Positions 300-62,500 of a DNA stretch of 64,000 nt are shown piece by piece. Origin of the DNA: Tribonema minus (lineage: Eukaryota > Sar > Xanthophyceae > Tribonematales > Tribonemataceae); NCBI GenBank assembly GCA_017506865.1, contig JAFCMP010000541.1:124001-188000 (forward strand), written 5' to 3'. Below the pieces are notes generated by a model. It searched no databases. It was not told the origin of the DNA and saw only the letters and a list, made by a program, of their open reading frames with translations. How positions within the stretch are numbered: the stretch's first letter is position 1; each line of letters starts with the position of its first letter. Both the position numbers and the translations under genes were made by a program.

Positions 300-870
300 C
301 GCAGGTCTGCCGACGCAGACTTGGAAACCACACTCTACGCTGCCAAACCTGATGTGGTCATGGCGCGCACACAACTCAAAATTGTGGAAGTTCAACTTGA
401 AGTTCTGGATATGCTTATTTCTTGTTTGAGGCTGGTAACGCTTACTGCCGTGTCGCTTGGGGGTCTGCTGGAGCAGAACTCAAAGGGACGGCGTCGCTCG
501 ATGCCACTGACCATGATGTGGTCAATGTGCACGCCAACTTCAAACATGAAGTTTCACCTGAGCTCTGACCCAACGATATTCAGCACTTGTTGCCCTGCGC
601 CCATGTGTCTGCAGGCGCGGAGCTTGAGGCCACGCTATTCCTCGACGCGGCCGATCCCGATGTGGGCAATGCGCGCGCCAACTCTTAACATGAAGTTTCA
701 CCTGAGCTCTGACCTACAATATTCCGCACTTGTTGCCGTGCACCCCTTGCCGTGCACCCCTGGGCCTACAGGCGCGGAACTTGAGGCCACCCTGTCCCTC
801 TAAGCAGACAATTTCGACGAGGTCAATGCGCGCGCCAACTTCAAATGTGAAGTTATAACTGAGCTCTGTC
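300..870 (+). repeat. Four diverged partial copies of the 925-1116 exon start
   Basis: Copies at about 300-370, 470-545, 605-705 and 765-865 resemble the acceptor and first about 65 bases of the exon at 925. Three of them diverge from the exon just after the GCGCCAAC stretch and run into a shared spacer (AACTTCAAA or similar, then an AAGTT..ACCTGAGCTCTG segment). One copy carries an in-frame stop, so they look like non-functional exon fragments. Nothing else recognisable lies in bases 1-924. Confidence 0.75.
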
Positions 871-924
871 CTAAACGATGTTCAATGCTGGTTTCACTAT
901 TGCCACACACACGCGTCTCCACAG

Positions 925-3900
925 GCGCGGAGCTGGAGGCCACGCTATCCCTCTACGCGGACGATCCCGACGTGGTGAAGGCGCGCGCCAACTCCGCCAG
1001 ACTGGTGCAGTCGCTCACCGCGGAGGACTCGCCGGCGCTACGCAAGGCCAAGGAGCTGGCGGAGAAGGCGCGCGCGCGGCTGGAGCGGCCCGCCGGCTGG
1101 AAGGACGCTGTGATAGGTGAGGGCGCCGAGCGCCTTTTTAGATGTCTGGACAGCAATGGATCAAGACAGTCCGCCAGCTGCGAGGCTCTGAGTGTTTGTG
1201 TTCCCAGATAATGCGTTTTATTGTGGGGACGCTGCGTTAGGTGAGGTGGGCAATGGCGCAGTAGCTGGGGTACATTCGCTGAGCTCACTGGAAGGACGCT
1301 GTGACAGGTGAGGTGGGCACGGCGCAGTAGCTGGGTGCGCTTCGTTGAGCTGCTTCAACTTCAAGGAGTAGGTTCAGGAGTGACTAAGTGCGTTGTTGAG
1401 TGCATGGGCCATGAGGAGGTTTAGGAGTGACAAAGTGCTTTGTTGAGTGCATGGGCCATGAGGAGTGCATGAGCTGCGTATAGTTGTGCGCTGCTGTGTT
1501 TGTGTCAGGCGGACGAGGGGCTGGGGGTGATGACAGTCGCTCCAGTGCTCAGCGGCGTCTTACTTAGCGCGAATCACTCAATGGTCTTTGGTGTGCGCGC
1601 TTGTCGGGGGGGGGGGCGCTGATTGTACGAGCGCCCAGCTGTGGTGCGATACGACATCACAATGTGCTTCAGAAAACAAAATGTACGCAGCGGCAGACGG
1701 GTAGCTCACGCGCAGGCTTTGCTTGCTACTGCTTGAAACCACTTTTCCCAAGTCGGTGCTGCTGCTTGGTAACATGCTGACTGTGATGGCTCTGTCCCCC
1801 GCTGTCGCTTCGCGCAGGCAAGGCGCGCGAGGCAGAGGTGGAGGGGCGCGGCCGCGTGGGCGATGTCATAAGAGCGGCGGCAAGGGAGGGGGAGCGGGCG
1901 CGCCAGGCAATCATGATGCTCAGAGGGGAGGCGACTGCAGCTACGGTATGCGCCAGTTGCATGTTGGCAGTACTTCTTTCTCTTGGCATGATTGGAAGGT
2001 CGGCTGCGTGCACGCGTCCCTGTGTATCTCACGCGTGCGACTCGCCATGCCTATGCTAAGGATGACCGGTATTGTCAAGCAGTGCGGCGGAGTATCTGTC
2101 AGCGGATGCAATTTAATGGGCAACTAGTGTAGCAGAGGTTCGCCCGATGACTGAGCAATGACTGTGCCTGCTGCGCCGTGCTTCATTCCTATGCTCAAGA
2201 TGCGGCAACCGATCTTTGCTCAAACTTCACGTCTCAGGGGCAACATGTCCTGTGCACAACGCTCTCAGGCCATATCACTGCCTCCAACAAAGCACCAACA
2301 GTGCATTCAATCGCACGTATTGTATTTGTTGTTGGCACGCTGCAGGCGTCCGACAACGTGCTGCGCTTCATGGAGAAGCTCGTGCTGGGCTGGATCGACA
2401 CGGCCGCCGCAGACGCCGCCGCCCTGGCCGATGCAACGGCAGTTACACAGACCGAAACAGCTCTGACACAGAACGGCGCTTTGCGAGCGCCGCCGCTGCC
2501 GCCGCTGTGCGCTGCCGATCTGGTGGAGAGGTATGAGGCAGGCGTGCTGCCGGCGGAGCTTGTGCAAGCATTGCTCAGGCGGGGGGCGAATAATGCAAAG
2601 GGGCTGTGGGCGGGGGCTTCCAGGGGGCTTGGGGGGGGGGGACGGGGGACGGGATGGTGGGGAGGGTGCGGCGCGTTTTGGAGGGGTATGGCAGCGGTGC
2701 CATGGGGTTGGATGATGCTGTGAGCCAGGTAAGGTGATTGTGGAAGGCATCAATCATCTGAAGACGATGTCATGTATTCGATATGGCACGATATATGAAA
2801 GGTCAGACGGCTGCGGAGGGTGCAAGGCATGCTGGGGGGGGGGGGGATGGCAGCAGGACGACCATGGGGGCTGGAGGGTGCTATGAACTAGGCGTGATGA
2901 CTTCTATATACATTTGAATGTGCTTGTGGTTAGCACAAAACGGAAGGGGTGCTTGAAGTGACGTACCGCATGTATGTGTGTATGTATGGGAGTTATACCA
3001 TGGGGTTGAAGATGCCTTGAACCAGTTCAAGTCAATGGTGTATGTAGCAAACCGCCACTGGGGTTCAACAATCAAAATATGATGACTGTTGTATGGCATT
3101 ACGCGACATCCATAGGATGGTGAAGTGGGCCAAATGTGAGCCAGAGATGCGCGAAAGCGGGGCCGCAGAATTGCAGGTGTTGTATATTACTATGCGCACT
3201 CTACACCATAGTAGTACCCTCTCTCACATCAAATGACAACATCCTCAACCAAGCCATCTGGTGGGCCTACTATGTGCAGAAGAGAGCGTCCAACGTTTCC
3301 TGGCCCGTTGCAGAAGTAAACAAACAGTTCGCAGCGCATTCAAGATATACACCTCGACACACTGTTGCGAGTGCTGCGCAAACTCTAACAGATTTGCCTG
3401 TACCCCCAACGGGGGGGCGGTTACAGGCGGTGGAGTACCTCAACTCTGCGGAGGGCGAGGCCGCAGCAGCGAGCCTCGTGAACTCTGGAGGGCGCCACCT
3501 GGCGGGCCTGCGGAGCACTGGTCACTCGGCAGCAGTGCGCGGCCTGCTGACGCGGCTTGGCGACCCCGCGCTCGAGGGCAGAATAAAGGCGAGCGTGGAG
3601 GGCATCGACGCGGACCGGTGGCTGGACATGGGGGAGAGGGCGCTCACGGACGAGGCGGCGCGCGCGGCGCTGCTGACGCGCATCAAGGTGAGCGCTGCCG
3701 TACAATGTCGTCGTGGCATTTGTGATGGTGCCGCAGAGTATGGCGGGTCGGGGCGGGGCCGATGACTTCAAGTTGGTCAACTGATGGGGGAGAGGGCGCT
3801 CGCAAACGAGGCGGCGCGCGCGGCGCTGCTGACGCGCATCAAGGTGAGCGCTCCCTGCGCGCTCAATTACGCACAGTAGCTGCTTGCCTCGAGTTGATAT

Positions 3901-6900
3901 ATCCTCCATCAATAGCGCATTGCTGCCCTGTGCCTGCTTGCACCTGTCGAGACCAATTTCACACCTAGTCTGAACGCACCACCTGTTGCACGACTTCTCC
4001 GTTGGCACTGCTCGCTGCAGGACGCGACGGTTGCATTTCTGCTGGAGTACCTGCCTACCCTGGAAGTGCCACCAATCAGCGGATCCAGTGCCAGCAGGTA
4101 AGCTCTTTCTGCTGCATGTACTCTGAAAGTACTGTTCACAAGATGTGGTGCATCGCAGTGTCTCACAAAGGTCATCTTGGCCCCAAAGTTGCTACCTTAA
4201 CTACCTATAATAATTATCATGCTTAGTGTACCTAGCATGCTTTGAACAAGCGGGTCAGGATGAGGGATAGGTTGATGTTAGCTTCTGTGCGGGCACATGC
4301 ATCCTTAGGTCTCAGCAGCGCTGTTTTGACACAGTGCAAACTGCCAGGTTTTGCAGCAGAGGAGGGCTGCAGCTGTCTACCAACATAAACATTACTTTTG
4401 TCTCCCCCTGTTCAGCTTGTTGAAGTTGTAAGTGAGTCATTAATTACTACAACCCCCGCGACCAACTGGCTTCGGCAGTTCTTGATTTTGAGCCAGCTTT
4501 GTGCATTGCCCCATGGCGGTCAACGTACACGCGCTTGCAGAACATGCTGGAGCCCACCGGCGCGGTTTGAGATCTGCAGGCAGAGGCAGCTCACGCTGCA
4601 GCTCGCATTGAAAGCTTTCTGTGACAAGAAAAAAATCGAGCCATGATGCAAGAATGCGCCAATGTTAACAAATGCGCCATGCTTTGATAGCGGGACGGCC
4701 GACATTCTCACGCTGACTGGAGGACCATGCGCTGTGCAGCATTGCTCATCTACGTGACCTCAGCAGCGGAAGTGCGTATGTCCTCCGCTGTCGCTGAGCC
4801 ACTCCCGAAACTGGCGTTCCCACTTCATTATCAAACGTCACGCACTCCTCTCAGATGCTTCTGCAACCCCCCCCCCCCCCCCCCAGCGTTGCCTACACCA
4901 TCGCCAACCTCGACCTCTCGGGCTTCCAGCTGCGCGCGGAGGACGTGGAGCTCGCGCTGCCCACCAAGGACGTGCTCGACGCACTGAGCGCTGCTGCAGA
5001 ACCGCATCCGAGCGCTGCCGCCGCCGCGCCGCAGCGCAGCGCCGCCGCGGGGCTCAGCGCCAGCAGCAGGTCGCCGCCGCGGCGCCGCCGCAGCGCTGCC
5101 GGCGCGCGTGTGCGCACGAGCCTTGGCGGCGGCGGCGGAGGCGGCGGCGGCGGCGGCGGCGGCGGCGGCAGCGGCATTGGCCCACAACCTTCAACGTTCA
5201 CCACAAGTGATCCTGCCACAGCAAGAACGGCGGGGGACCCGACTGTGCCAATGAGTGCTGAACGCAAGACAACTGCCGGCAGTGCCGGCGGTGTCGGTGG
5301 CGGCGCCGGCGGTGGCAGCGGCAGCGGAGGCGGCAGTGGCGCAGCAGCACCTCAGCAAGTGCTTGCTGCTGCTGCTGGTGGTGATGCTGGCAGTGACAAC
5401 GGCATCAGTGCTCGCAGCGGCAGCATCGCCGGTGCCGCCCAGGCGGAGCAGCCGGCAGAAGCGGCGGGGCGGCGCGACAGCTTGGGGCGACGGCGGCTGC
5501 GGCGAAAGAGTGCTGACACGCCTGTGAGTACCTCACCACCTACTTGGTTATTCAAACTTGACGAACCGGTGTGTGTGTGTGTCCGGGTTCGTCGTGCAGC
5601 GGGCGTTGGAGGTACTTTGAAGTATTTGCACATTCACGCCGATGGCGTCGGAGGGATCGGTGGTCGCACATTGCGCCTGTGCGCGCCTTTGCACCATATG
5701 CGGAAGCCGCCGGGCTGTTGACGTCGCTGCTTTGAGGAGCGGCTCCGCAGGTGCTGCTTGGCTGGACAGTCCCTGTGGCAGACAGCTGCGACTTTGCTTG
5801 TGCGTGAAACGCACACAGGCGCAGTCTGGTGAAACATGTTCATGCAGTCATGTAGGCATGGCTCATACTTCGAAGTAATTGATGGCTGGACGGCTGGCGG
5901 TACTCAATTGAATCAATTTGCAGTGGTTCGGAGCATCATCCCTCTGCCGGCTCGTCCGTACGCACGCGCATCTCGTCTGCCGCGCAGCGCGCGCGCCAAA
6001 GTCATCATTACTTGAAGTTTACAAATAGTTGAAATTTATTGGTGCGTCACCTCTGCACCAATGCACGTACACATGCGCGCATCGCTCATCAGCTGCGCTC
6101 GTCGCGTCTGCCCGTGCAGCCGGCGCCGGAGGTTTTTGCTGTGGTCGCGCGCGGCGTGCATGCGCAGTTCCGTCATCAATAGTTCAAGTTACTATAAATC
6201 ATTAAAGTTTGTCGGCGCATCACCGCTGCACCAGCTTGCACGTTCGTATGCGTGCACCTCTCCATCAGCTGTGCGCCCGTCAACTGCGCAGCCGGCGCCG
6301 GAGGTTTCTGCCGTGGCCGCGCGCGGTGTGCAGGCGCAGTTCCGCCATCAATAGTCAAAGTTTCATGAAGAGTTGAAGTACTTTTGGTGCGTCACCTTGC
6401 GCATAAAAACGCCCGTGCACACTGCTCATCAGCTGCGCCTGTCGCGTCTCCCCGCGCAGCCGGCGCCGGAGGTGTTTGCGGTGGTCGCGCGCGGCGTGCA
6501 AGCGCAGTTCCGCGGCATACAGTGGGCGGCCAAGCAAGAGACGTTTCCGTACGGCAGCGGCACCGGTACAGCAGGTGAGGGCGTAATGCGTACTGGTTGC
6601 TGAAGTACGGTAGTGCTTATGTTTTCAAAGTGTACCGCATAGGTGTACAGTAGGTTTATCGAACTGCATAGCTGTCCTGCACAGGTGGACCGCAGTGCGG
6701 CGCGTCATAGCTCTGCAAGACAGCTTATGTGTGCGTCAGAGGTTTGTATCGCTGTTGTCACTAGTCCAAGTATTGCAGTGATTCATCTGCTGTACCTCTG
6801 AAGCAGCTCGGTACAAAGTTCACGCCATAGCAGACCCAACAGGTCTTCTATGCTGTTTGAAATGTTGAAAGCACGCCGCAATTCCGCTGCCTTGACCAAG

Positions 6901-9900
6901 TGCCCCTGCAGTTTATTCAGCGCCGGCAGCCTGTTGCCGTTGTGTCTGCTTCAATTTATTTTGGGGCTTAAGGGAGTGCCGTCGCATGCAAATCGTCAGT
7001 GAAATGCATTCCTCTGAACTGCTGGACTTTGAACCAGTGTACTTCTGAAGTACTTGCCGTGTATTTGATTATCACGTCCTTCTCCTGCACCATATCCTTC
7101 AAAGCTACTCCTTGTTTTGTTTTTGTAAACAGCAGTGGTATGGTTTTCGTTGAATGTTGCACTTGCTGCCACTCCTCAAGTGCTGTGCAGCAGCCGCTCA
7201 CACTTCAAAGTACCAGCGCGTGCTACCGTGTTGCTTCCACAGCTGCTATAATCTGCTCGCGTGCTCGTCGCTGATGCTCAACGGTCTGCTCTTCCTTGTC
7301 TGCTGCCATCGCCGGCACTGCGCCAGACGCTATGGTAGTCAACGGCAGCGTGCGAATTGGCTTCAGCCTTAAGCGCGGTACTCTCGGCGGCGTCGAGGTG
7401 AGTCGCTCACTTGAACGCTGCTATGTTGAAGATGACGCTAATTACACAGATGGTGACGACTAGTACATCACGGACTTGGCTTGTGCCGGAAGCGTACAGT
7501 TCAAATTGCGACTGCAGCTTTTTTGCCTATCGTTGCGCAAGTTACTCAGAAGAAGAATCCATAATCCCAGGCTACTAGTAGTCGATTGTTTAATCAACCA
7601 CAGCTGCTGTGAGCCTATTTTGTGATTGGCAAGATTTCTGCCCTTGGAAGTTTCAGGCCGCCTCCCACAAGCGCTTGCCAAGTGGCACAGACCCAGCAAC
7701 GATTTGGAAGTTCAACTACTTTTGTGGTTGTGCCGCTGTGGCCATGCTGTACTACACTCTCACCGGAATGTTGGCGCTGAACGCCGTGCTGCCGTCATGT
7801 GTGATGGCAGAAACAGATGAGCAATGCCGACTGCGTCGAATCTGCGCCCACCACGTTACTTCAATGTTTGTGCAATCTGCTACCTGTTGTCCGACCGTAA
7901 CTGCACCCGCTTGCTGGTCATGTCGCGCCGCTGCATCAGCACTAGCATTCTGTCAGTTGTGAACTACCGCTGCACCGCTTGCTTGCCAGCCACTGACGTG
8001 CCACTTGCCAGGCAGGCACTGACCGCGTTTGCCGAGCTTTCATGACATTGTTCGTGGCCAGCCGCGGCACCACTTTTTCCAGGAGCTGCTGAGCCTCTGT
8101 TGTCTGCTTTGCAAAGCCGCCACTGTGTCGTCCGCGTTTGCCCTTTTGCCTGATAAGGGCCCGCTGCTGGTCATGGTAAGCCGCGCCATCACCGTCTTGT
8201 GTCGCCTACCAGCTAGCGCTCCGCTGCAGCTATGTGCCTGGCGTTGTTGGCCTACGCCACTGAACACGTGATGCATTTCGCTGCTGCACAACCAGTGTCC
8301 CTCCGCCAAACTCGTCCTACTGCATCGCGTGCTCCCCTCCCGTCCTTGGCGGAGCCGCCACTGTGTCGTCTGCTGAGCGGCTGATGCTCTGCTTGTTTTG
8401 TGCCGCCTTGTAGGGCCCGCTGCTGGTAATGTCGAGCCGCACCATCACCATGGAGGCGCTCACGGTGTCTGTCGCCAACACGCGTCTCGCGTGGCTTCTC
8501 AACCTGCTGGTGTCGCTCTTCAGCGAGACCATCAAGGTAGGTACTCCGTCTACTTGCTTGCATACATCCTTCGAAGTACATACATACATAGAAGGACGTA
8601 CATACACACACACGACACGCACCTCGCGTGGCTGCTCGACCTGCTGGTGTCGCTGTTCAGCAAAACCATCAAGGTGCTGACTACGTACATGTACATACAT
8701 ATGTTACAGCTGCTACACTTTCAGAAATCTGGTCTTTCGCACGATCCTCCAAGCTGAAGTGTGTGCTCGTAGCGCTGATAGTTCCTGGGGTGTACTGCAT
8801 GTGGAGCAGTCGGTGAGCAGTACGCTTTACTCTTTTCAATCAAGTCTTAGGCCTGTGTTTCCTTGCTTATAGCTACGCTTCCTATGGTCCTTTGCACATT
8901 TCTTGAGGCTCAAGTTTGTGCTCTTCATGCTGACGAGTCATCCATTGAACTCATGTGCAGTGGACAGCCAATTTCGAGCTATGTGCTCAAGCTAGGCTTT
9001 CTGGGCTATTTACCGTGGTCCTCAGGGCCAAGATTTGTGCTGTCCAAGCAACTATGTCCTGCATCGAACTACATGTTTAGGGGACGGTCAGCACTAGGCT
9101 TCTCTGTTCCTTAGGCCTATCCTTTCTCGGCTGCTATTTCAATGGTGAGTTGTACTCGCATTTTTTACAACACAAGCATGACGGTTGAAGTTAGGAAATT
9201 CGATGGCAATTCTGACAGTTAATCTTACACAAGCCTGGCAGTTGAGCATAGGACGCTGCGCTGGAAGTGCAACGGCGACTCCAAACAGTTATGCAACATG
9301 GCCGCCATGTGTACGTCTCGCATCACTTCATGGTCTATCCTGTGGTCACCTGCTTTGCAGGACTCTGTGGCAGAGTCAAAGACGTGCTGGATGATGATGC
9401 TTCCAAGCTCCTGGTTGCCGTCTGTAGCCGCGAACGACCTTGAATCAAACTACACCTCATCACGTGCATCTCACACTTGCACATTGAGCGATCTCGAAGC
9501 TGGTGGCCTCTACATCACGCGTCATTGCAGATTTTCTTATGCCGTAGCCTCAAGGGCACTTTGCAGGACGAGAGAATGCGTTCGAGCTTCTGCGTGCCAT
9601 CACCCTCACCCTAACCCTAACCCTTCGAGCTCATATCCTATAACCCTAGCCTAAGCCGATACGCCGCCGTATCACGCACTGCAGAGCACAAACCTCGCAG
9701 GACATTCGCCACTCAAACAAAAGGCAGCTTCTCAACTGATTGCTCTCTCACGACGCGCACGCGCCCGCAGGAGTACGTCTGCCGCAGCCTCAAGGACACG
9801 CTCGACAAGAACGCGTCCGAGCTCCTGCGCACCGGCACCGGCTTTACAAGCGCATATACCATCGCATCATAGATCGCAACGCACAGATTCTGCAGAATTC

Positions 9901-12900
9901 GCCACTGGAACAAACTGCAAACTTTCCACCGATTTCTCCCTCGCGACGCGCGCGTCGCTGCAGGAGTACGTCTGCCGCAGCCTCAAGGACACGCTGGACG
10001 AGAACGCGTCCGAGCTCCTACGCACCATCACCGGCTCTACAAGCCAAAATAACATCATATCATGCACTGCGGAGCACAAGCTTTGCAGCACTGCCAGTTG
10101 AAGAACAAAGAACAGTCGTTCAACTGTATTTCTCTCTCACGATGCGCGCGTCACCGCAGGAGTACGTCTGCCGCAGCCTCAAGGACACGCTCGACGAGAA
10201 CGCGTCCGAGCTCCTGGGCGCCGTCAATGGCTTTGCGGCGGGGTCGTGGCCGCTGCTGCTGAGCGCTGCCAAACTCGACGCGGCGCGCCTGCCGCCTGCA
10301 AGCGCCGCGGAGGAGGCGGTCGCGCGTGGCGAGCGCGCCGCAGCGCCTAAAAGCGGCGGCGCGCTGCGGCCGCCGCGGCTGCCGCCGCTGCCACCGCTGG
10401 ACGTGTTTGAGGGCGATGGCCAGGTGCGGAAGCATCGCAATTGCGAGTTTGCGAATGTGCGCTACTGCTGTATCTGTCAAGGCGTACTACTTGAAGCGGT
10501 ACATAGCGCCGCATAGGAGGCAATGGCGCGCAGCGAGCGCGCTGCGGCCGCCGCCGCTGCCGCCGTGGGCGTGTCTGAGGGCGAGGCCCAGGTGCGGAAG
10601 CGTCGCGATCGCGAGTTGCCCTACTTAAGCAATAGACTCACAAAGGCACAAGAGTGCAGCGCGGGCCTGCAGCTGCCGCCGCTGCCGCCGCTTGATGTGT
10701 TTGAGGGCGAGGGCCAGGTGTGGACGCGTCGTCATCGCGAGTTTGAGTGTGTGCACTACTGCTGTATCTGTCAAGGCGTACTACTTGAAGCAGTAGACAG
10801 CGCCGCTGCCGCCGCTGGACGTGTTTGAGGGCGAGGGCCGGGTGCGGAAGCGTCGCGATTGCGAGTTGCCTGCGTGCGCTGCCATACTGTTCGTACTTCT
10901 TGAAGCTGTAGATAGCCCCGCGGAGGAGGCGTTGGTGCGCGGCGAGCGCCGCTGCCGTCGCTCGACGTGTTTGAAGGCGAGGGACAGGTGCGTGATTGCG
11001 AGTTACCCATGCGGCTGCCGCCGCTGCCGCCGCTCAACGTGTTTGAGGGCGATGGCCAGGTGCGGAGGTGTCGTGATTGCGAGTTTGAGCATGTGCACTA
11101 CAGTACTGCTGTATCTATGAGTTTGTACTGCATGGAAGTCGCAGATCTCGCAAAGGCTTCAGAGCGCAGCGCTAGGCTGCTGCTGCCGCCGCCTCCGTGC
11201 GCAAGGGGCGACCGCCCACGCGCAGTCGTGTGCTGCTGCTGCGGCTGCTGCTGGTGCGGCTGCGTGAGCACCTCAACGGTCATTGAACATTTTCTCAGCA
11301 GTGAGTACTGGGACGTGCCTGCACCGCTGCTGCTGCGCTAGATGTATTAGAGCGCGGGGGCGCTAGGTGCAGAAGCGAAACTGCGCGTTGCCTGCACTTG
11401 TTCTGCTGCATGTATTCTTCAACGGTGATTTCTCAGGAGCTGGCAAACGCAACTCATAGCTGTGCACCTGCCGCCGGTGGACGCATTTGAGCAAAGGCTG
11501 GATGCAAAATCATCACGGTGTGCACCATCTGCCTCTCTACAGTATGTTACGGACTGGTGACTAGTGGACGGGTCTCGATGCAAATTGCTTGGAGTCGATG
11601 CGCTATGATCACTGTAGAGCAGTGGCAGGCGCACATAGGAGCGCAAGCAGTTGAGACACGTGTGCAATGGCGGCAAAAAACTGTCATAATGGGGAGCGCC
11701 TGATCGTAACGGCGAAGACGAAAGCGCATGAGTATCGGGCCAGCGAGCGGAAATGCACGTGCGACCTCATCTGCGGCTGCTGCCGCCTGTGTAGATGTGA
11801 GGGGCGGGTGTGATTTGGAGAAGATCGTATGTTCACTACTGTGACAGGGTCTTTACAAGATGCAGCCTTGCCAAGAAGCAATTGGGCGCATGAATGGTGC
11901 ACGCGAGCGCAGCATGCCGCTGTCCCCTGTCTACGCTGTGAGCAGGCATGCGGTGGGAAGGAAAGCTGAGATAATGCATTGAGTGCAAGTCCACAATAGT
12001 CTACTTCAATGAGCATACATCTGTGCGCGCATCCCAAATGGAACAGATTGTCAAGACGCCACGGTCATCTGACAGGCACCCCAAGGCTGCATTATGTGGC
12101 GAAAAGGGGACACACCAGCTACATACGCTTCGAATAGTTGACACTGTCTTGGAGAAGCTCACGTCTGCTGATCGCGCACCGCTGCTGTTTTGGTCTGCAG
12201 TTGCGCGGGTTGATTCCGCAGGAGTTCAGCTTGGTGCTTGAGGAGCAAGGGCCTTTGGGCATGCAAATAGACATTGTGGAACTACCCGGGGGCGGCAGGC
12301 GTCTGCTGGTGGCAGGCCTGGTGCCGGGGGCTCAGGTGATCACAATGATCAATTGCACTTCAAGCTCAGTGACGAAAAATATGCCGTAGAGCAGGGAATG
12401 CTGCTGGTGCCAGGCCTGGTGCCAGGGGCCCAGGTGAACACAAACTTCAGCTATAACTTCAAGCTCAGGAACAGAAAATATGCGGTAGAGCAGGGAATGC
12501 TGCTGGGGGCGGGCCTGGTGCCGGGGGCCGAGGTGAACACAAACTTCAATTGCAACTTCAAGCTCAGTGACGAAAATATGCCGTAGAGCAGGAAATGCTG
12601 CTGGTGGCAGGCCTGGTGCCGGGGGCGGGGGCCCAGTTGAACTTCAATGTCAGTTGCGACTTCAAGTTCAGCGGCAACATTTGTTTCTAATTCAGATTTT
12701 TCTTATTTGCAGTAGAGCATGAAATGTTCTTGGCATGGGCGGCCCCCCGAGTAGATTAGATGTGTTAAGGGTCAGGGTGAGGTACGCTTACATGCCCTGT
12801 GCGGAGCCACTCACAACACCGCAGCAGGAGCAGTGCCCACAGAATCTGCCCAAACTGCAGGCAACTTTTGGATGCTGAACCCCCCGGTACTCTGGAGTTC

Positions 12901-42965: not shown

Positions 42966-42971
42966 TGACCA

Positions 42972-43300: not shown

Positions 43301-43308
43301 AATATCAG

Positions 43309-43330
43309 CAGCAGCAGCAGCAGCAGCGCT
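43309..43330. repeat. (CAG)n microsatellite
   Basis: Seven CAG units directly beside the LTR end, running into a CAGCGCTCACGG sequence. Confidence 0.85.
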
Positions 43331-43478
43331 CACGGGGCACAGCATGCATCACGGCTCAGCGCAAGCAGTGCGGTCAACAGCAGTGCTCAGCGCGAGCAGT
43401 GCTCATGTTGAAGGTGCATGTGATTGAGGTTGAACTTCCACCATGAACTTCAACCAATCGCTCGGTGTGTGCGCGCAG

Positions 43479-50500: not shown

Positions 50501-53500
50501 CCGAGCGACTACATAGCATCATGTGCAATGCAGCAGCACCCGGAATCGCCACAAAAATTGTCAGGCGCAGGGGAGCCTGGAAGGGCTGTATCCTCTCACA
50601 ACCGCCCTCTATACACTTCCCTGACTGCCGGTTAGTATTGCTAGTTATTTCAGCACGGAAGCGCTGCGACTGTACGGGTTGACAGTTAGTGAGCTTATCT
50701 AGTAGCACAATGCTGCAGTGCAAGTCCCACTCCAGTGCATCAATCTTTGGCAGTGTGGTACCGTAACCTTTGGCAGTGTGGTACCGCATGGAACAACTTG
50801 TTCTACCGTGTAAATATTATGTGTTGTGCCCTCACAACGACGCTTTGCTTGTGATTCAGTTGGACACCCTCTCGACTTCAAAAGGTCATTCTACTGTTTT
50901 CTACTTGATGTCGAATTGCACTACAGCAAATGACCCTCCCGTGCTGCGCTTAGCGAGGGGGGTTCGCCACGCTCGCAAAGCGCGAGAACGGCACTGCGCA
51001 GGCATTCCAAAATTGCAGAGGTGCGTGTATTGTGCATACATGCAGACAGAGCTCAACACAGCTGACAGGCAGATCGCTAACGCCCCCCGCAGTGTGGACA
51101 TGATTCAGCCGGACGGGAGCGTCGCTCACATGCACTACGAAGGGGAGGACATGAAGTCGCCTGTCACCGGCCACGGTCCGATTGCGCAGCAGCACGCGGA
51201 TGCGTGCGTCGCATATATGCGGCGCCTGCCAGACGATTTGCCAGGTCAGTTGGGGGGATGAACCTGCCATTACTCTAACTTCAACTGCAGGCGGCGTACC
51301 TGCTTGCCCTACTCCTGCCAGGTCAGCGGGGGGGTGGACTTGCCATACCCCTTACTCGAACTTCAACTGCAGGCAATATTCGTGCATGCCTCACTCGAAC
51401 ATCGACATGCCTGCTCGAGGGTCGGCAGATAGCAACTTGCGGCTGCCTGATGGCTCGCCCCCCCAGTACAGCATGGGTATACGTGCATACCCTTCTCCAA
51501 CATCAACTATAGGCAGCATTTTCAAACGCAAACTTCAATAGGTTCGCCAAACGATGTGCCATGTCAGTCACCGGGCGCCAGCGCAGGAGTACACATGTAT
51601 GCCTCTTTTTCAAGCCACAAGCGCAGTGAATGCCTGCACCAGTGCACAATGAGTGCTTTGGTGCTGAGTGGTGGTGCTTCAGCTTGACCTCAGTGCGTAC
51701 TGTACTGTTGAAATGGGTGAGTACTGTTCTTTATAGTACTGTACACTGTACTGTACTGCTGCGCACATCACATGTTCATGATCGCAGCCTCTGCAGTCAT
51801 AGTGCCGGCGGTAGCCGTTTCTTCCAGCACTGCGTTTATCGCTGCCTCGCCTGCAGTACTAGCAGCACATACATGCACTGCTGAGTGTTGGTGTTGCGCC
51901 CCGTTGTCATGCGAGCCTGCACTCGGGCCTGGATGACTGTCGGCACCACGGTCGCCAGCAACGCTTACAGCAGTGCGCAGAACAGACAATGATCACATGA
52001 GTCGACACCGCTGTTGGTCCTCTATGTGGATGATGCGCCAAGCATATTTGCAATTGCAGGGTCTTTTCTAGACACATTTACGTTCGGTTTCTGCAGCAGC
52101 CGCTGATTGCCCGTGTCCCACTTGCGTGCGTGCAGCCGGCGAATACAAGTTGAGGATCACGGACTCCCACGCGATGGACTTTGTCCGCGCGACGCGATCA
52201 TTTCAGGTACGTACTTCTACTTCACTTCATTGATGAAGTAGGCAGTTGCGGGTACTCAAAGCCTGACGACAGCAACACGATTACTTGAGTCATGTACTTC
52301 AACGATGAAGTAGGCACTTGGGGGCGCTCGAAAAGTGCACATGTCAGGAAGCTTTGACCGTGGACATCGCGTCAAGCGACGAGATCATTCGACGAATGTA
52401 GGCATGATTGTTGCCAGGTCTTGCTATTAGTTGCTAATTTATACTGTGGCATTGTTGGACTCGTGGCCACTTGCTGCAGCAGTGGCGACCACGGTGCTTG
52501 GTGGAAAGCTGGCGGCTAACCACACCTTGTCACGTTAGGCTGCTGCGGGCGTATGCTGCGATGACGGCAGGGCTCCCTTGAACGCGCATGCTTGCCCTGT
52601 TAAGAGTTAGGGCTGGTGTTAGGGTTAGACGCCTCAGACGCTGCCCCTTGCACTCTGCCGCCTCGCTCGCCAAGCGATCAATGACCCCCCCCCCCCCCCC
52701 CCAGCTGATCTTCACGCAACTCCGCTGAGCCTGCTGCGCAGGTGCGCGCCTACCAGCCCCCGCGCCTGGCGGTGCGCGCGCGTCTTGACAGGATCAGCTA
52801 CGCGGCCGGCGAGGCCGTGGGCGTGGCGCTGTCCGTGGAGCGCGCACAGGGCGGGGCAGCGCTCGGCGCAGACGTAACTGTCGTGGCGCGCATCGACGGC
52901 CACGAGGTCTACCGCAGCGAGCCGGGCGCCATCAAGGTGAGCTGTCTGTCGCTTGCTGGTTGTGGTGAAGAAGGAGCATGTTTATGTTTGGAGTGTGATG
53001 CAGAGTGTGAGCGGGCTTAGGACGAGGCAGCGCTCGGCGCGGACGCAACTGTCGCAGCGCAGGCCACCAGCAAGTTTTGGTGGACCCTCTCCAAATGGTA
53101 TCATGTGCGCCCGTTGAGTGTTGGTCAAGCTTTAGCAACCACACAAAAGAGCGTGTGATGAGTTTCCAGAATGGTCGTGGCAGCAATCATGCAAGTTCGC
53201 TAATCCCGATGCTCGTGGCTAGGCAGAGCGCAGCGCTGCGCTCATGTACGTGTCGTCGTGCAGATTTCTGGGCGCTGCCGCAGCGTGCCGCCCCTGTCAC
53301 ATACTAAGCCCCTTCTGAACTTGCATTCAGATGTACTAGCAGTGGGTCAGCCCCAGTACACAAGGAGGTATTTCACTCGGACCGAGTGTTCGTACACGCC
53401 GCGCGCAGCATTCGTTGGTGTGCATTCAGTCACAGTAGCGTGCGTCAGCGTCAGGCAAGCACTCAGCGGGGCAGGGCAGCGCTCGGCCAAGACGTAACTG

Positions 53501-56500
53501 CCATAACTGCTGCGTCTCGCGCAGATGAGTGAAAAGGCTATCACAGGACGCCCCATGTGCTTTCAAATCAAGCAACTCCTCTCGTGCCATGCTGTGCCAC
53601 CGCCATGATGTGCCAGGGCAGTGTGACACTGCTCTAACCCTGACCCTAACTCTAACCCTACCCCACACCCCATCGGGCACCATCACTCGCCGCCCATTTT
53701 CTCCCACTGCATTGTATTGCAGGTGCCCGCCAGCGGCAATGTCAACGCGGTGGTGCCGCTGCCTCAGTCATGGATGGCTGGAGTAGGCTTGCTGTCGGTG
53801 ACCGTTACAGATGGCGGCACCGTGGACACCACCACCGTCGCGCTGCCGCTGGTGGCCGCAGCGCTGGATATCAGGTGACTTGAAGTTGAAGTTTGGTGAC
53901 ATCAGGTGCCCCGCAGGCAACTGGTGTGTCGTTGGCGTGCTTGCTTCGTTTTGCAGTGGCAGCTTGAGATGGTGATGCTCGTCGGGCGCCAGTGGAATAA
54001 ACGTCGCCACCTCGCAGTGCTCCAACACAGCTGCTGCACTCCAATTCGTGATGCGCGCTGCAGAGGCCGCTGAACAGCACGCGATTTCAAAGCACTCCGA
54101 GTGGAAGTGCTGCATCCTTGAAGTTGACATCCATCAGACGATGGCGGTATTCACATGTGGTATATTGCGTCATCACCGCTGAGCACTGTGCGACAGGCTG
54201 CTCGATTGTACAGCTCAAGTGTTGCCTTAGGGTTACGGTTAGGGCTAGGTCTGTCCCCGCCTCGTTGTCTGAGTCATCACGCCAGTACTGCTTCTGGCCC
54301 GTGCCACCTCCCCATTGTAAGTCGTGAGGCGACCCGTCTTAGCCTGAGGATTTGCATCAGGTTTTGGCCTAGGGTCCGAATGACGTCCAAGGTAGGCCGC
54401 AAACAGTGATCATCCACCTGTGCTCATCAGCACATATGTCGCGCATCCACTTTGACCACCAGGCCGTCCAACGTGATCAACTACCTTGGCTCAGGTTGCA
54501 CACTTGCCGCGCACGCCATATGGCACCCCCATCTCTTCACCATGCGCGACGCCGCTCGCGCCACCCCCTGATCCCCCCCCACACCCCCGGCCTGTGTTTT
54601 GCTGCTACCCCCCCCCCCCCCCTTCCCTGCCTCACCTGTGCGATGCCACTCGCCCCCCCCCTTCCTGACCCCCCCATACCCCCCTGCACCCCCCAGCGTG
54701 TACCCCGAGGGGGGCGACCTGGTGGCGGGCGCGCCGTCGCGCATCTACGTCAGCGCTCAGCAACCGGACGGCTCGCCTGTGCGCGCCGCCGCAGACGTGT
54801 GCGAGGCCGTCGTTGGTGGCGGCAGCGGCGGCGCCTGCGTGGCGTCTGTCGAGACGCTGCACGAGGGCAGGGGCGTGTCAATGTTGTTCACGCCGGCGAG
54901 CGGCAAGGTGCGCGTGTGTGTGCGCTGCGGTTGAGCGTTGTGGCGAGGGGCGCTGCGGAGGCGCGCTGCTGCTGGACAATTCCTTTATGGGTACTTGATT
55001 TACTGAGCGGATTCTCTGCACCTGATGAGTGCGAAAACGTGGAATGCGCGCTGTCGAGGGCCGTCGCGAAGGCGCGCTGCTGCCGGACAATTTTCTTTCA
55101 TGAACACCAGGTACTACGAAGATTCTTTGCGTTTGAAAAGTCCCCTGAGAGTTGAATAGTCCTCTTGACATATAATTACAAGTTTTCCACGCTTGATTTG
55201 ACGGTGTACTTTAGATCCTCTCGCTGCCTTTTTACGCTCTCCTTTTGCATTGCTACGCTGCGCGGTGCATCGTCTAAGAGGCTGGTGCAGTGAACAACAT
55301 GTGCTTCAATAGGTATACTTCTCGAGAAGTATGTACATATGCAGCGAGAGTTGCGTTGAGACGCTGAGCAAGGGCAGCAGCAGCAGCAGCAGCAGTGTTG
55401 TGTCAGTGCTCTTCGCGCGCAGCCCACCTCGTTTGTACATTTTCTCCAGCTGAGCCGTCGCAGAGACAAGGAGCGGAAGTTGTCGTCACGCATTGTGCAG
55501 AGTCGGCTTGAAGTTAGAGGCTGCCCGGGGGCGCCTTGCATCAATCAGCAGCCGGCCTGTGCAGCGAGTGTTGGTCAAAGCTGCAAGCCACAGGCGCGGC
55601 AGCTGCGCGCTGCCAAAGCCGATAGCGCAAGGTGCACGTGGCCCAAACCTGTCCACTGCCACGCTCTTGCCCGTCTCTACCCCCTCTGCAGGCCTGCAGG
55701 CCACATGGCTAGCCAGCCAAGGGCTGCAGCGACCTCACTGCGCCGTTGTTGAGGTTGAGAAGTGTGTGCCTACCTGCCCATCATTCCTGCCATCGCCACC
55801 TCAGTCGCTCAACAAGTGTGACTCAGAGGGTGACTCTACCTCTGTCTTCTTGTCACATCTGCAGTCGTGCGTGCTGAGAGTGGTACGCCCCACGCAGCAG
55901 GAGGTGACTCTCCCTGATGTGAAGTCTCGATCAACAAGTATGACTCAGAGTCTGACGCTACCTTTTGCTGTGTCACATCTGCAGTCATACGTGCTGAGGG
56001 TGGTGCGCCCCACGCACCAGGAGGTGACTCTCCCCGACGTGAAGCCGCAGGGCGCCACGCTCCACGCCCTCAAGCCCTACTACAGGTATGCACTCGGTCA
56101 CTTGCAGTGGGCGACGAGGCGTGCGAACTTCGCTGCGCAAGGGCCTGTTGAAGTAGCTCTACAAGGGCTTGAACTCAGTGACGCTGTCTGGAACACGGGC
56201 GCTGTAGAGCACGGGGTCGCGCAGCTTGCAAAACGCCTTGAGCGCCTATGTGGCCATTCTGTAAGCATATCTCGTGCTGAGTATACGTCTTCGAACCCTG
56301 CGCGGGGTGTCACAGTGCTTAATTGTGAAAAGTGCAAGAACGCCTCTCCCCCCCCCCCTGCCTAAGTCTGGCACGCCGCTCTCAGACTTGTGGCACCGGT
56401 GCGTAGGCTACAGCGCTCGCCTCGCATTTGCAGCCGTGCCGCTGCCGCCGCCGCAGCGCTCCTAGCCCGAGGTTTTGTGGCCGCCAGACACGCCATCGCC

Positions 56501-59500
56501 GTCGCGCTGCTCCCTGTTGCTCACGGTTTTAGTTGTGGCGGGGGTACGTGGTGCTCATACCACTCACGTCGTGGTGATGTTGAAGAATAGCTGCTGCCAT
56601 CACTCGCGTCGTACCACTCACAGCATGGCCGCCAGCAGAGTGACGGCGTGTCGACTTGGAGCCGGGTGTTTCCATGTTCGTCCTCGACCGTGTCATGCGG
56701 GCATGAAGGCAGCAGCGCTCCACACGATAGCGTCCCGGTACCAGCGCGCCGCTCTCATGCAATCAGGTGGCGAGAGCACTTCAGAGGGGTATACGACCGG
56801 TCCATGCTCACTGCTGAGGAATAATAGGGTTGTCACTGAGGTCAGCGGCGCGACGCCGATGAGGCATTCACATTCAGCCCTCTCTGCACATCCCTCGTGG
56901 ATCATCCACACACTGAATACGCGCATGCGAACGCACTCTGTGGGCGCGTTTCGCGCTGCCAACTCTAACCCTAACCCTGCCCCTCACCTTATCGTCAACG
57001 CTGTGCGCGTGCAGGCCCAACGAGAGCGTCGCGTTTGCGGTGGCGTCGACAACGGAGCGCGTGCTGCGCCTCACGCTGTACAAGCGCGAGGCGGAGGTCG
57101 CCAGCGTCGCGCTGCGCGTCAGGTGAGTTGTTGAACTTGAGATTTTGCTGAAAAATTGAGATTCCCTGAAGTTGAGATTTGCAGTCGGAAGCTTGAAGCC
57201 GGCGTGCGATTTTTTCCTAGGTCCGCATGCTGCCTGACGTGTGAACCCTTCTGTGCTCCGTCCTACTGTGGTACGCCTTCCCTGCTTCGTCCTACTGCAT
57301 TACAGTGTGTGTGCAATGAGAGGTCTGGCTCAGTGAACGCTCCGTTGTGTGCTGCGCTGGCGATCTGCTGGGACCCCGTTTCACTTGCTGAGCAAGGGCT
57401 GATGCGCTGCGATGTCGCGACCGCATATACTCCAATACAGAAATGTCTAGATCCATTTCTGGGTCTGTGTGGAGTGCGGGTGCGTTGGCCTGCTCGCCGA
57501 CCCATTTCAGCTGCCCTGGCCGTCCGCTTGCCATCCGCTGCCAAACACGGCCAGGTGACGAATGTGCTCACAGAATCTGCACGAGGCCCCACGGCATGCA
57601 GTTCAAACCTTTCTTTGTCGAAAGCCATGCACCAAGACCAAGACATGCATTGCACTTGTGTCGACAACACCTGGTGTCGTACAGGCACCATGACCCGTGC
57701 ATGGCACTTGCGTAGACAACACCTAGGTACCAAGACCGGTGCATGTCACTTGTGTCGACAACACGTAGAGTAGACGCACAGGACATGACCGCTGCACAAA
57801 GATTAGGGTTAGTGTTAGACTGCTACTGCAGCGTACTCAGCCCTGAGGCCTGCACGCGTCCTGCCCTTCTCGCGTCCACCCCCCCCTCCCCCCCTCTTGC
57901 GAAGCGTACTCTGTGCTGAACAAATACTTCAGAAGTATAATTATTCGTGTAAATGAACGCCGCATAATTACTGAGCATTGCTGAACCGAGCACTGCTGCT
58001 GAAAGTGCTGAGCGTTGCTGGGCTGTGCGCTTCGCAGGGCCGGCGCAACTCCCACCACCTTTTGGGAAGTTTTCACACCTACTTGATGTTTTTTGTCGTT
58101 GTCTGGCTGCGAAACACACAGGGCAGCGCCGCTGCAGAATGCTTCTGCCGCTGAGCAAACCCCTAATGTTGCTGAGCTGAACATTGCTGCCTGACACATT
58201 GCTGAGCACTGCTGAATGTTGCGGCCCGCGCTCCTGCACAGAATTGGCGCAATCTCCACCACCTTTGAAAAGTTTTCACACCTACTTGATGTCTTTTGTC
58301 GCTGTCAGGCTGTCTGAATGTGCCAACAAAACCATACTTTAAAGTATGTGTTGTTAAACAACAAAAGCGCTGAACATTGCTGAACACCGGTAAGCTGAGC
58401 ACTGCTGACATTGGCGAGCATTGCTGGGCTGCGCGCTGCGCAGGGCCGGCGTGACCCCGCCCACGTTTCGCCTGCTGCCGCTGAGCAACCCCCTGGCGGA
58501 GGGCGTGCTGCGTGCGACGCACACTTGCGACGCGCGTATTGTGTGTTTACAAAACCATACTTGTTTTGACAAAAGCGCGCTGAAAAATGCTGAGCATTGC
58601 TGAGCTGAGCACTGCTGACATTGCTGAGCATTGCTGGGCTGTGCGCTGCGCAGGGCCGGCGTGACCCCGACCTCGTTTCGGCTGCTGCCGCTGAGCAACC
58701 CCCTGGCAGAGGGCGTGCTGCGTGCGACGCTGTACGATACAACAGGCACGCCGCTGGCAGAGAGGCTCGTCTTCAGGGAGCCCGCGCACAGGTGAGCGAG
58801 AACAAGTTCAAGATCAACTTCAAACTTGAAGTTCAATTTGGGTATTTCTGTGCGACGCCGCCACAAAAGCGCCGCTGGCAGAGATGCTTATCGTCAAGGA
58901 GCCTGCGCACAGGTGAGCGAGGGCAAGTTCATTGAGTGCTGACGTCCTTGAGATCAACTTCAAACTTTAAATTTGATTTGCGTATTTCTGTACGATGCGG
59001 CAACGGGCGCGCCGCTGGCAGAGAGCCTCGTTTTCAAAGCCCGCGCACAGGTGAGCACGTGTGCGTGTTTGAGCGCTGATTGGGTTGAACTTCAAATTGG
59101 AAGATCGATGAGACGCACGATGACGGCACGGGTGCGCCGCTGGCAGATAGGCTCGTCGTCAGGGCGTTCGCGCACAGGTTAGGCTGAGCACATTCATCGC
59201 CCAACATGTATTATTCATTTATTTTTGTTGTTCAGCAACATGTCTGCTTGCGCTCACAGCCTCCCCACCCCCCCTCTCAGGCTGTCGGTGGCCCTGGTGC
59301 TGAGCGATGCCACCGATGTCGGCGCTCCGCACGAGCCGCGCTTCGCGCCCGGCAAGCGCGTGCGTCTCACCGCGCGCGTCTCGCACGCCGCCACGGGCGC
59401 GCCGGCGGCAGGCGCGTCCGTGGGGTTCGCCGTTACGGACGTCCGCAGCGCTCAGCAGGTGCCAGCGCGGCGCCTGCCGCCACGCCTGCCCGCCATGGCC

Positions 59501-62500
59501 CTCCTCGAGACAGGCGAGTGGACTGTTGAACTAGTGTTTTGAAGTATGTGGTTGAAGTAGTGGTTGAAGTAGTGCCAGGGGGCCTTGCCGCTGAGAGTGA
59601 GAGAACTGTTGAAGTAGTGTTTGAAGTAGTGCAAGGGCGCCTGCCGCCGCGCCTGCCCGCCATTGCCCTCCTCGAGACAGGTGAGCGGACTGTTGCATTG
59701 TTTGAAGTAGTGGTTGAAGTAGAAGGGGGCGTGCCGCCGTGCCTGGCAGGCGTGGCCCTCCTCGATACAGGCGAGCGAGATATTGAAGTATAAGTTGAAG
59801 TACGTGGTTGAAGTGGTTCAAGGGCGGCTGGCAGGCGTGGCCCTCCTTGAGACAGTCGAGCGACCTGTTGAAGTAATGTTTGAAGTACGTGGTTGAAGTG
59901 GTGCAATGGGGCCTGCCGAGCCGCAGTCGAGTCGCAAAGTGCGGTTGACGCTATGAAAACACGAGCTCAGGTAGGGGCAGGTACCGATGGTGGAAATGGT
60001 CTGTACTTAACCTAGCCGTGACGTCTGCAGATGCATGCGCTCAGAAAAGCTGTCGCGCCTGCCTGGCGGGGCCCTCCTTGAGACAGGCGCGCAAACTGTT
60101 GAAGCACATTTTCAGCTATGCAAGTGTGCGTTGCCGCTAGCTGTCCATGACGCGACAATGCTGCGATATGGACACTGGATACTGAATCATGCTGCTTACA
60201 GCCTTCAGCTCGTCACCTCCTGAGACCATTGCTCGAGGTCATGGAGAGCGCTTCAGACCATGCACCAACGGCATGTATTCATGTCCATGACAGGCGTGCA
60301 GTGCGCAGGCGCCTCTGTCCCTGTCAATCGATTGTGATCCTTTGCATGGCAGAAAGGCAGGTAGGTATATATCTTGCACATGTCAATGGTCACTGCAAGA
60401 GCACACTAATAAGTACTCGACTACAACCACCGGGAGAAGCGCAATGCAGCCACATCTGCTGCGACTGGCAGCCAGCCCGTCTCTCGGTTTTATCGTGCTT
60501 GAGCTGACAGCGCTGACAGTCACGCTCATGCAATGCCCTGCGCCAATGCCCTGCGCCTCTAGACATTTGTTTTTCACAAGTCCCTCCCCCCCCTACATGT
60601 ACTGTTTAAACAATGACATCAGAGGTCGAGCAGCTCTTGGATGCTGGTGCATACCTACCCTGGGAAAGTTCCGCGGACGAGACCGGCGCCGGTGCCGAGA
60701 CCGTTCCTCGGGAACAGGCGCTGGACCTCCTGCTGGGCACGCAGGGGTGGCGCCGCTTTGTCTACAGCGGAGATTTGTTGAAGTATCTGGAAGATGGCGT
60801 GGAGGCGGAAGATGTCACGGCTCAGCAGGATGCGCTGAGGCAGCAACGCGAGGTGATCTACAGTAAAACTAGTTTTTTTTCATTGCTTGTTGCAGCCATT
60901 TTCAGTGGTACTTCTGAAGTATGAGATTTGTTGACGTATCCGGAAGGTGGCGTGGAGGCGGAGGGTGTCACGGCTCAGCAGGATGCGCTTAGGCAGCGAC
61001 GGGAGGTGATGTAAAAATTGCAATTTTTGGCTTCTTACGGCTATTTTTAGTGGTATGAGATTTGTTGAAGTATCCGGAAGTTGGCGTGGAGGCGGAAGAT
61101 GTCACGGCTCAGCAGGATGCGCTCAGGCAGCGACGCGAGGTAATAAAAAAATTGTCATGTTCTCTTGCTTCTTGTAGCTATTTTTAGTTGTATCGGTTCT
61201 ATTGTAGAACGAGACAAGCCCTTTGAACTCTATTTATAAAGCAAATTATACGGCCACTTCTTTAGATGTTCATTCACTGTTGCTTTTTGTAGCTATTTCC
61301 AGTGGTATCGCTTCTATTGCAGAACAACATACACCTGTAGAGTTCTGTAGAGCGAAGTATACGGCCACATTTCAGGTGCTCCTGTTTGGGATGACGGCGG
61401 CACGCTCGCGGGTGGTAGGTGCCCCTAACCCTAACCCTAACCCTAATGAGCGCATGCGGTTTAGCGTGCTGCCCGTTGCGTAGCCCTGCCCCTGCTACAT
61501 TTCCGCTTCGCAGGCACAGGCGGCTCTGCCGTCAGCGAAATGACCCACCGGCGGAGGAGGAACTGAGCACTGCATCCGTGCGCGGCCTGCTGCAATTTGC
61601 GCAGCAGCACTGCCGCCCTCGCTGCGTGCCGTTCCACTGCATGTCTCCCCCCTGTGTGCCGCTCCACTGCGCCCCCGCAGACGAAGTAAGAACTTCAAGA
61701 CCCTGTCGCCGTCTGCAGCGTGCTGTGCGCGCAGCGCTCCCGACGCTCAAACCTGCCCCCCAAGAATGCGATGCGTGCGCTTGCAGGCGCTGCCAGAAGA
61801 TAGGTATTGCATCAGCTGGGTCGTTCGTGCGCCGTGACCTCAGTGCTCACATCTGGGCAGAAGCCCCCCCCCCCCCCCCCCCCTGTGTGCGCAAGCTCAC
61901 TCCCCCCCCCCTCCTGTGTGTGTGGTGGCAATGCTCCGCAGGCCCTGCTGGGGGTGGGCGCGCACCCCTCCGGGCGCGTCGAAAGGGGCTGGTCGAGCTC
62001 GTGGATGACGCCAGACGACACCCCGCCCGCCGCGAATGAGACGGCGGTGAGTGCAGCAGTGCTCAGCATTGCGTCATGCTTGCGCGCGGTGTTGTCGAAA
62101 AGAGTGCCTTGTGGCTTCCTGAAGGGGACAAGTAGTGGCGTTATGTAGCGGACGGGTGGAGAAGGTGAGAGCCGCAGTGCTCCACCGCTGTTCACCCTCA
62201 TGCGAGCGTTTTAGATATGTAAAGACCTGAAGGTGCTGACTTGATAGCGCCATGTTGATTGCGTGTTGGCATTCTGCCCACACCATGTTGAAGTATCATG
62301 TTGAAGTCTCAGGCATCAGGCCCCTGCCCCTTACCTACATGCCCGTCAGCCTCAGCGCTCAGCATGTCGTGTTTATGGCAATATCAGTGAACCTGATAAC
62401 GACCCTGGCTCCGTCAGTGCAAGCTCAAGCGTCGGAATCTTGCAACCCCGACCGCAGCCCTGACATCAGGCTCGGAGACTGCCCTTGGTTACGCATTAAT

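Follow-up and report, generated by a model that had tools for sequence, protein, structure and literature searches.

Partial exon copies beside exon edges in Tribonema minus: probable by-products of local direct duplication

The window analyzed here is a stretch of 64,000 nucleotides from the alga Tribonema minus (C538:124001-188000, from a 158-Mb genome in 554 contigs). It contains a weakly PDZ-like gene, called gene 1, at 1-19 kb (+), a cyclophilin gene at about 21-25 kb (-), a short-chain dehydrogenase (SDR) gene at 26-33 kb (-) and an MG2/alpha-2-macroglobulin-like gene at 46-64 kb (+). The PDZ match of gene 1 lies below Pfam's curated cut-off. The cyclophilin and SDR genes match solved structures, and in the MG2-like gene several exons are matched in order by bacterial MG2-domain proteins. 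In gene 1, the cyclophilin gene and the MG2-like gene, introns carry partial copies of the neighboring exon, which we call echoes. An echo upstream of an exon contains the acceptor and the 5′ part of the exon, and an echo downstream contains the 3′ part of the exon and the donor.

Exon models were made with a small ab initio gene finder and checked by reading frame and, where available, by homology. The first run of the finder over-split the window, and a stricter run was used afterwards. At edges 925, 6460, 10160, 13752 and 59513 the runs disagreed; there the coordinates of the original prediction or of the first run were adopted, which may favor echoes. For gene 1, which has no useful homologue, reading frame and splice signals are the basis of the edges, of which 2561, 5523 and 18973 are the least certain. 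Edge 2561 was taken from the over-split run; in the stricter run it lies at 2685 and in the original prediction at 2728. Because of this disagreement, the echo near 2728 was left out of the count of echo-bearing edges given below.

The original prediction named partial copies at 22 exon edges, 9 acceptors and 13 donors. We took 150 bp on each side of every edge and searched it against its own 1.6-kb flanks (a 3.2-kb neighborhood) by BLAST; a copy was called clear when the alignment clearly crossed the junction at E≤1e-3. The copies were confirmed, with 18 of the 22 edges clear, three weaker and one supported by a shuffle test only. Clear copies were found at seven acceptors (925, 6460, 10160, 17384, 49799, 55985 and 58654) and 11 donors (3687, 10423, 12335, 13752, 15002, 47149, 58791, 59513 and 60852, and 22075 and 23302 on the minus strand). 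At the weaker edges 8414 and 8536 exon and splice dinucleotide are copied (AG only and GT only, respectively), and 13607 matches over just 32-36 bp. Edge 2728 gave nothing by BLAST, and its local alignment was better than 300 of 300 doublet shuffles. In the same shuffle test, 13607 did better than 299 of 300 and 8414 better than 300 of 300. When the edge test was run against unrelated 3.2-kb stretches, 0 of 294 comparisons matched, and against the edge's own flank reversed, 0 of 98. Chance is therefore excluded for the edge set as a whole. Five short inverted matches lie near four of the named edges and none crosses a junction. Five pieces of exon without a splice site speak against a strict reading of the pattern: 52838-52889 (with its copy at 53009-53060), 333-377, 7906-7941, 9364-9422 and 58141-58164. 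The echoes and their source exons are as follows.

520..840 (+): two tandem echoes of acceptor 925 with the first 69-70 bp of the exon; decoy AG retained in both
925..1116 (+): gene 1 exon with echoes upstream of its acceptor, 925
3427..3687 (+): gene 1 exon with an echo downstream of its donor, 3687
3784..3855 (+): echo comprising the final 60 bp of exon 3427-3687 and its donor, 94% identical, after an 84-bp unique spacer
6003..6345 (+): two tandem echoes of acceptor 6460 (exon 6460-6574), with 53-54 bp of exon
8156..8193 (+): echo comprising the initial 36 bp of exon 8414, AG only
8615..8675 (+): echo comprising the final 59 bp of exon 8414-8536, GT only
9518..10036 (+): three upstream echoes of acceptor 10160, with 67-75 bp of exon
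10160..10423 (+): exon flanked upstream and downstream by ladders of echoes
10525..11116 (+): five echoes of donor 10423, all downstream, with 41-66 bp of exon
12401..12671 (+): three tandem echoes of donor 12335 in a unit of about 98 bp; GT lost in one
13973..14095 (+): echo of the GC donor 13752; the decoy is GT
15081..15191 (+): echo of donor 15002, with 61 bp of exon
16936..17018 (+): echo of acceptor 17384, with 61 bp of exon and a 341-bp spacer
21812..21872 (-): echo of donor 22075 at 95% identity, with 31 bp of exon, set off by a unique spacer of 172 bp
22075..22201 (-): exon of the cyclophilin gene, with 22075 as its donor
23034..23133 (-): echo of donor 23302, with 64 bp of exon
23302..23415 (-): exon of the cyclophilin gene, with 23302 as its donor
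46898..46933 (+): short echo of acceptor 47059, with 21 bp of exon; absent from the original prediction
47059..47149 (+): MG2-like gene exon, with a ladder of six copies following donor 47149
47276..48292 (+): six-copy ladder of donor 47149 in a unit of about 170 bp, each copy with 48-54 bp of exon and a decoy donor; TTAGGG-like stretches within the unit
49553..49686 (+): echo of acceptor 49799, with 55 bp of exon
49687..49730 (no strand): spacer between echo and source at 49799, containing telomere-like TTAGGG repeats
53009..53060 (+): an exception, a copy of exon interior 52838-52889 without a splice site
55805..55924 (+): tandem echo of acceptor 55985, with 60 bp of exon
57971..58520 (+): upstream echoes of acceptor 58654, at 57971-58065 and 58361-58520
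58654..58791 (+): MG2-like gene exon with support from bacterial homologues; echoes on both sides
58850..59182 (+): three echoes of donor 58791, all downstream
59636..60103 (+): four downstream echoes of the GC donor 59513; site lost in one
60923..61192 (+): two downstream echoes of donor 60852, with 83 bp of exon

Beyond the window, we used tubulin-family loci from a domain search, fetched before repeats had been seen in them, together with other genes recognizable in the window and in fetched loci. The tubulin-family loci were used because genes chosen for the pattern would bias the judgement. The counted set has 107 exon edges in 11 genes. Of eight fetched loci, three (L031, L033 and L035) were counted. 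The other five (L032, L034, L036, L037 and L038) were left out since their exon edges could not be fixed; local direct duplications are present in all five. The carbonic-anhydrase-like locus L002 was dropped for uncertain exon edges; it had one acceptor echo and one inverted 130-bp match at a doubtful donor. The nearly intronless FtsZ locus L012 was not counted.

Echoes were found at 31 of the 107 edges (14 acceptors and 17 donors). The polarity stated in the original prediction held in the counted set, with 0 wrong-side and 0 inverted copies at the 31 edges. So did the lack of whole duplicates: no complete or near-complete copy was found within 3 kb of the modelled exons of the 11 genes. The gamma-tubulin gene (L031) has echoes at seven of 11 edges, including a ladder with a period near 170 bp after the exon ending at 5752. 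Without its echoes, the protein aligns end to end with known gamma-tubulin over the modelled 231 residues, with one extra residue. No echo was found at the 12 edges tested in the SDR gene. We also tried a fixed breakpoint within the exon and rejected it. The longest exon part copied is 33-83 bp at the first 16 window edges, a range that seemed non-random, but 9-89 bp with 31 edges, 89 bp being the longest at any of them.

Local repeats in this genome are nearly always direct. Within 5 kb, the window has 86 direct repeat pairs versus 1 inverted; matches beyond 5 kb inside the window are few (4 direct, 1 inverted). In ten further stretches of 10 kb, each from a different contig and all from the same fixed position, 52 direct and 8 inverted pairs in total lie within 5 kb; the direct bias is present in every stretch but is less extreme than in the window. 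Over 197.6 kb, tubulin-family loci included, 160 direct and 3 inverted pairs lie within 600 bp, ladder pairs not being independent. After thinning to 114 pairs, the distance between copies has a median of 171 bp (5-95%: 77-420 bp).

The original prediction described these copies as tandem. This is correct for the ladders, which abut head to tail with units of 157, 193, 99 and 170 bp. It does not fit many of the pairs, high-identity ones included, which have a unique spacer between the copies. Four close pairs, in L002, L003, L031 and L007, have a gap of 2 or 6 bp or an overlap of 3 or 12 bp, as end joining can leave. Among pairs of at least 88% identity, 27 of 33 have more than 3 bp between the copies, a count that includes non-neighboring ladder members, and in 13 of the 15 pairs tested the spacer is unlike either neighboring flank (z below 3 for both). 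Both counts would suit a copy-and-paste process, in which a nearby template is pasted into the intron by polymerase-theta templated insertion or by a mobile introner-like element. Such a process should also give inverted and wrong-side copies, but only 3 of the 163 pairs within 600 bp are inverted. At 15 of the 31 echo-bearing edges the distance between copies is larger than the exon, and a pasted copy was geometrically free to land on the wrong side. None did, at these or any of the 31 edges, which speaks against pasting. We consider pasting rather unlikely.

Some spacers and ladder units contain telomere-like TTAGGG (49687-49730; 47276-48292) or TTGAAGT-like sequence. TTAGGG-like repeats are scattered through introns and spacers, in the window at 47209-49721, 9609, 13521 and 61423-61441. 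Among 16 sampled contig ends, one (L024) is a TTAGGG array; TTAGGG is therefore probably the telomere repeat of the genome. TTGAAGT/ACTTCAA is over-represented, with 85 copies in the window, three of them in exons (e.g. at 25444-25492, 58817-59893 and 12357-12659). Nine of ten other loci have 4-12 copies per 10 kb, where by our arithmetic about 1.2 would be expected for even base composition. Non-coding copies lie nearer to exons than random positions do (median 240 versus 400 bp), in part since ladders carry the motif.

To compare junctions with introns, we used ten genes with 105 edges, excluding the one-exon delta-tubulin-like locus L033, and sampled intron positions every 61 bp. A local duplication was present at 30 of the 105 junctions, compared with 173 of the 728 intron positions (Fisher p = 0.28; stratified odds ratio 1.5). 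For exon interiors at least 45 bp from an edge the count is 22 of 219, and six of the 728 intron positions have an inverted match. With stricter criteria, a previous count yielded 16 of 50 edges of genes 1 and 3, 76 of 298 non-coding positions there, 22 of 212 positions in 24.5-45 kb and 3 of 25 exon midpoints. The genes whose introns hold many duplications are mostly those that carry echoes: gamma-tubulin has 37 of 66 intron positions duplicated and 7 of 11 edges with echoes, and an XRCC3-like gene 2 of 56 and 0 of 9. The cyclophilin gene (2 of 5 edges, 2 of 28 positions) and the SDR gene (0 of 12 edges, 13 of 99 positions) are exceptions to this trend. We read these counts as exon edges being caught in a general duplication process, not as a special target.

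The original prediction had introns growing by duplication with exon-intron junctions as the substrate. Growth by duplication stands, with 173 of 728 intron positions duplicated; the role given to junctions is not supported, as their pooled rate does not differ from that of intron interiors. A stronger form, in which introns lengthen mainly by repeated junction duplication and selection for the intact exon shapes the polarity, would fit the presence of echoes at 31 of 107 edges, the odds ratio of 1.5 and the lack of complete copies. However, local direct duplications were found in ten of ten fixed-position loci. A modest junction excess is also expected, because selection holds one member of the pair and the pair stays recognizable for longer. 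We consider this form unlikely.

Polarity also arises without selection. The copies do arise by duplication beside the exon, with the intact exon retained, as was proposed. A duplication over an acceptor leaves the extra copy upstream and one over a donor leaves it downstream. Polarity is therefore what flanking duplicates give, as any direct flanking duplication over one junction would, and it loses its value as a sign of exon preservation. The absence of complete copies does not prove selection either. Duplicated segments are about as short as exons, so only 2.1 complete copies are expected by observed segment lengths (probability of none 0.09) or 4.3 by copy spacing (probability of none 0.006). 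This absence is weaker evidence than it appears and is only mildly surprising.

To follow the decay of echoes, we used 38 echoes at 16 window edges; since ladder members are not independent, they represent about 16 events. Divergence from the source was 14.8% in the intron part and 8.7%, 7.5% and 17.2% at codon positions 1, 2 and 3, respectively. The ratio to the intron, with edges resampled, is 0.54 (95% interval 0.41-0.68) for positions 1+2 and 1.15 (0.87-1.46) for position 3. When both intron copies and the echo change freely and the true exon alone is constrained, at positions 1 and 2, ratios of 0.5 and about 1 are expected; the observed values are therefore as expected with only one constrained copy. 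In gamma-tubulin, divergence is 5.9%, 3.7% and 18.2% at the three positions and 14.6% in introns. Judged from this pattern, the echoes look like neutral fossils, with no coding constraint on the copy.

The splice dinucleotide (AG, GT or GC) is intact in 36 of the 38 echoes, where 28.7 are predicted by overall identity and, by our arithmetic, about 32 if the echo alone mutates at about 8% per base. We do not read this retention as maintenance, because the ladder copies are not independent, but it certainly gives no sign of purging. In gamma-tubulin the dinucleotide is intact in all eight assessable echoes, and three of 11 are not aligned at the site. A splice-site score model was built from 53 acceptors and 52 donors, in which the 10th percentile of real sites is 4.1 bits for acceptors and 6.4 bits for donors. 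The original prediction of decoy splice sites was borne out, with 32 of 38 echoes, namely all 12 acceptors and 20 of the 26 donors, scoring higher than this percentile. For random AG and GT in 30-46 kb, the 90th percentile is 5.4 and 3.1 bits, respectively; by this threshold, donors stand out strongly from random sites and acceptors only weakly.

Strong decoys and intact dinucleotides, together with the labeling of some echoes as exons by a homology-free gene finder, are what one would expect if echoes served as alternative or poison exons or as decoys that regulate splicing. Against such a function, codon positions 1+2 diverge at about half the intron rate, as expected with one unconstrained copy, and gamma-tubulin aligns over its modelled length without the echoes. 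We consider a function of this kind very unlikely. That the copies are an assembly artefact, from misjoined reads or an unresolved satellite, is hardly credible: mis-assembly can yield very local direct copies, but most copies differ by 5-30% from their source, the differences track codon structure, and like duplications occur on many contigs.

We conclude that the echoes most probably result from neutral local direct duplication. The genome makes many small local duplications, nearly always direct and roughly 30-300 bp long, whose copies abut or enclose a unique spacer and some of which expand into ladders. These would fall in introns and the rest of the non-coding DNA without exons being singled out. 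When a duplication spans an exon edge, one copy would remain attached to the exon and the other would be stranded in the intron; the stranded copy would keep the splice site of that edge, because the other copy stays joined to the rest of the exon. Afterwards the true exon would be under purifying selection and the stranded copy would decay neutrally. The duplications may originate from the repair of staggered breaks or paired nicks by fill-in and end joining, with occasional filler. The decoys would be ignored, since an echo is a half-exon that lacks its partner site and part of the exon, and exon-definition splicing would prefer the intact exon and tolerate the half-exons.

Several observations weigh against this conclusion. 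Incidence is uneven, with echoes at 0 of 34 edges in the SDR, XRCC3-like, alpha-tubulin, beta-tubulin and FtsZ genes versus 31 of 73 in the six others. In gamma-tubulin, the ratio for codon positions 1+2 is near 0.33 and not 0.5, a value that rests on 13 differences. Retention of the splice dinucleotide above the neutral expectation is compatible with some maintenance, and the decoys might be used in splicing. Spacers occur in recent pairs, whereas fill-in alone would leave the copies abutting. The lack of complete copies, with 2.1 to 4.3 expected, leaves room for real selection.

Paired nicks or staggered breaks are known to give short direct duplications of tens to a few hundred base pairs whose joints carry filler or microhomology. 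Compared with these, the telomere-like and TTGAAGT-like spacer content is additional here. In the competition constructs of Reed and Maniatis from 1986, splice sites with truncated exons reportedly lose. The echoes would be a natural counterpart, in which near-identical sites compete and one has a truncated exon; unlike in those constructs, the sites are genomic and up to six repeats stand at one edge. Internal gene duplication, as treated by Gao and Lynch in 2009, is said to create introns. As far as passages citing that work tell, the partial, polarized and apparently silent copies found here are a different outcome. Echoes also differ from exon duplication that yields alternative exons, as no whole exon with both splice sites is present and the copy shows no coding constraint.

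A potato RdRp gene has been described in which a tandem duplication over an intron-exon boundary made a new intron and extra exonic sequence, with RNA-seq support (PMC4974935). That is a single case, whereas here 31 edges are involved, on acceptor and donor sides and some with ladders, and the gamma-tubulin protein shows no sign of change. In the model of Rogers, with the work of Hellsten in 2011, an exonic AGGT is tandemly duplicated to give a new intron, as described in PMC3443670. Intragenic tandem duplication multiplies splice sites in both systems, but here existing introns lengthen and a new intron is not implied. Intron gain by AGGT duplication was rejected on geometry: such an intron would open with a copy of the following exon and close with a copy of the preceding one, whereas the counted copies have acceptor and exon 5′ part upstream, or exon 3′ part and donor downstream. 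According to PMC8724738, duplicated splice sites are used in constructs. A literature search, with most subscription journals outside its coverage, found no genome with polarized partial exon copies. Boundary-spanning duplication itself has thus been described; the present case differs in its density, its occurrence on both exon sides, the ladders and the apparently silent fate of the copies.

Other features of the loci were also recorded. GC-AG introns are frequent, with GC at five of 52 modelled donors; these are 13752, 59513 and 29818 (-) in the window and 890 and 2838 in gamma-tubulin, where two of six donors are GC. The named matches of the MG2-like gene are all bacterial, the best at 37% identity (Planctomycetota). 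Because the database searched seems to be mostly prokaryotic, a bacterial origin of this gene is only possible. A direct repeat at 41661-41991 and 42972-43300 (331 bp, 98% identity, 1.3 kb apart) is a closer match than most local copies. Long reading frames in L003 (about 8585-9895, -) and L008 (about 4568-7135, +) are near-identical across two contigs and are probably a mobile element. A 5S rRNA gene (Rfam RF00001, 105.9 bits) lies at 20934-21052 (-), just past the last well-supported cyclophilin exon. The cyclophilin (25189-25428, -) and FtsZ (L012) models open with a hydrophobic leader followed by an AF-type motif. We take this to suggest plastid targeting. Together with the TTAGGG contig end, it fits an alga whose plastid is of secondary red origin, and a green-alga origin, considered at first from base composition, was rejected.

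Tentatively, exon definition may act as a filter on mutation, such that duplications occur everywhere but near exons only those giving a half-exon survive, since the spliceosome could not define a half-exon, whereas a whole copy would be included in the transcript; the telomere-like and TTGAAGT-like spacers would then be traces of repair. If this is true, the genome would hold very many natural experiments in splice-site competition, with up to six near-perfect decoys per edge and with ladders even in gamma-tubulin, apparently without loss of function. Intron growth would then be linked to the mode of splicing. For annotation, the echoes are a warning, as homology-free gene finders call them exons, which happened here. 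Each echo is a mutation anchored to an adjacent surviving exon, so that neutral and constrained change may be measured side by side and the growth of the intron is recorded. At many edges of one organism, the echoes pose the choice of the spliceosome between a true site and a near-equal copy next to it.

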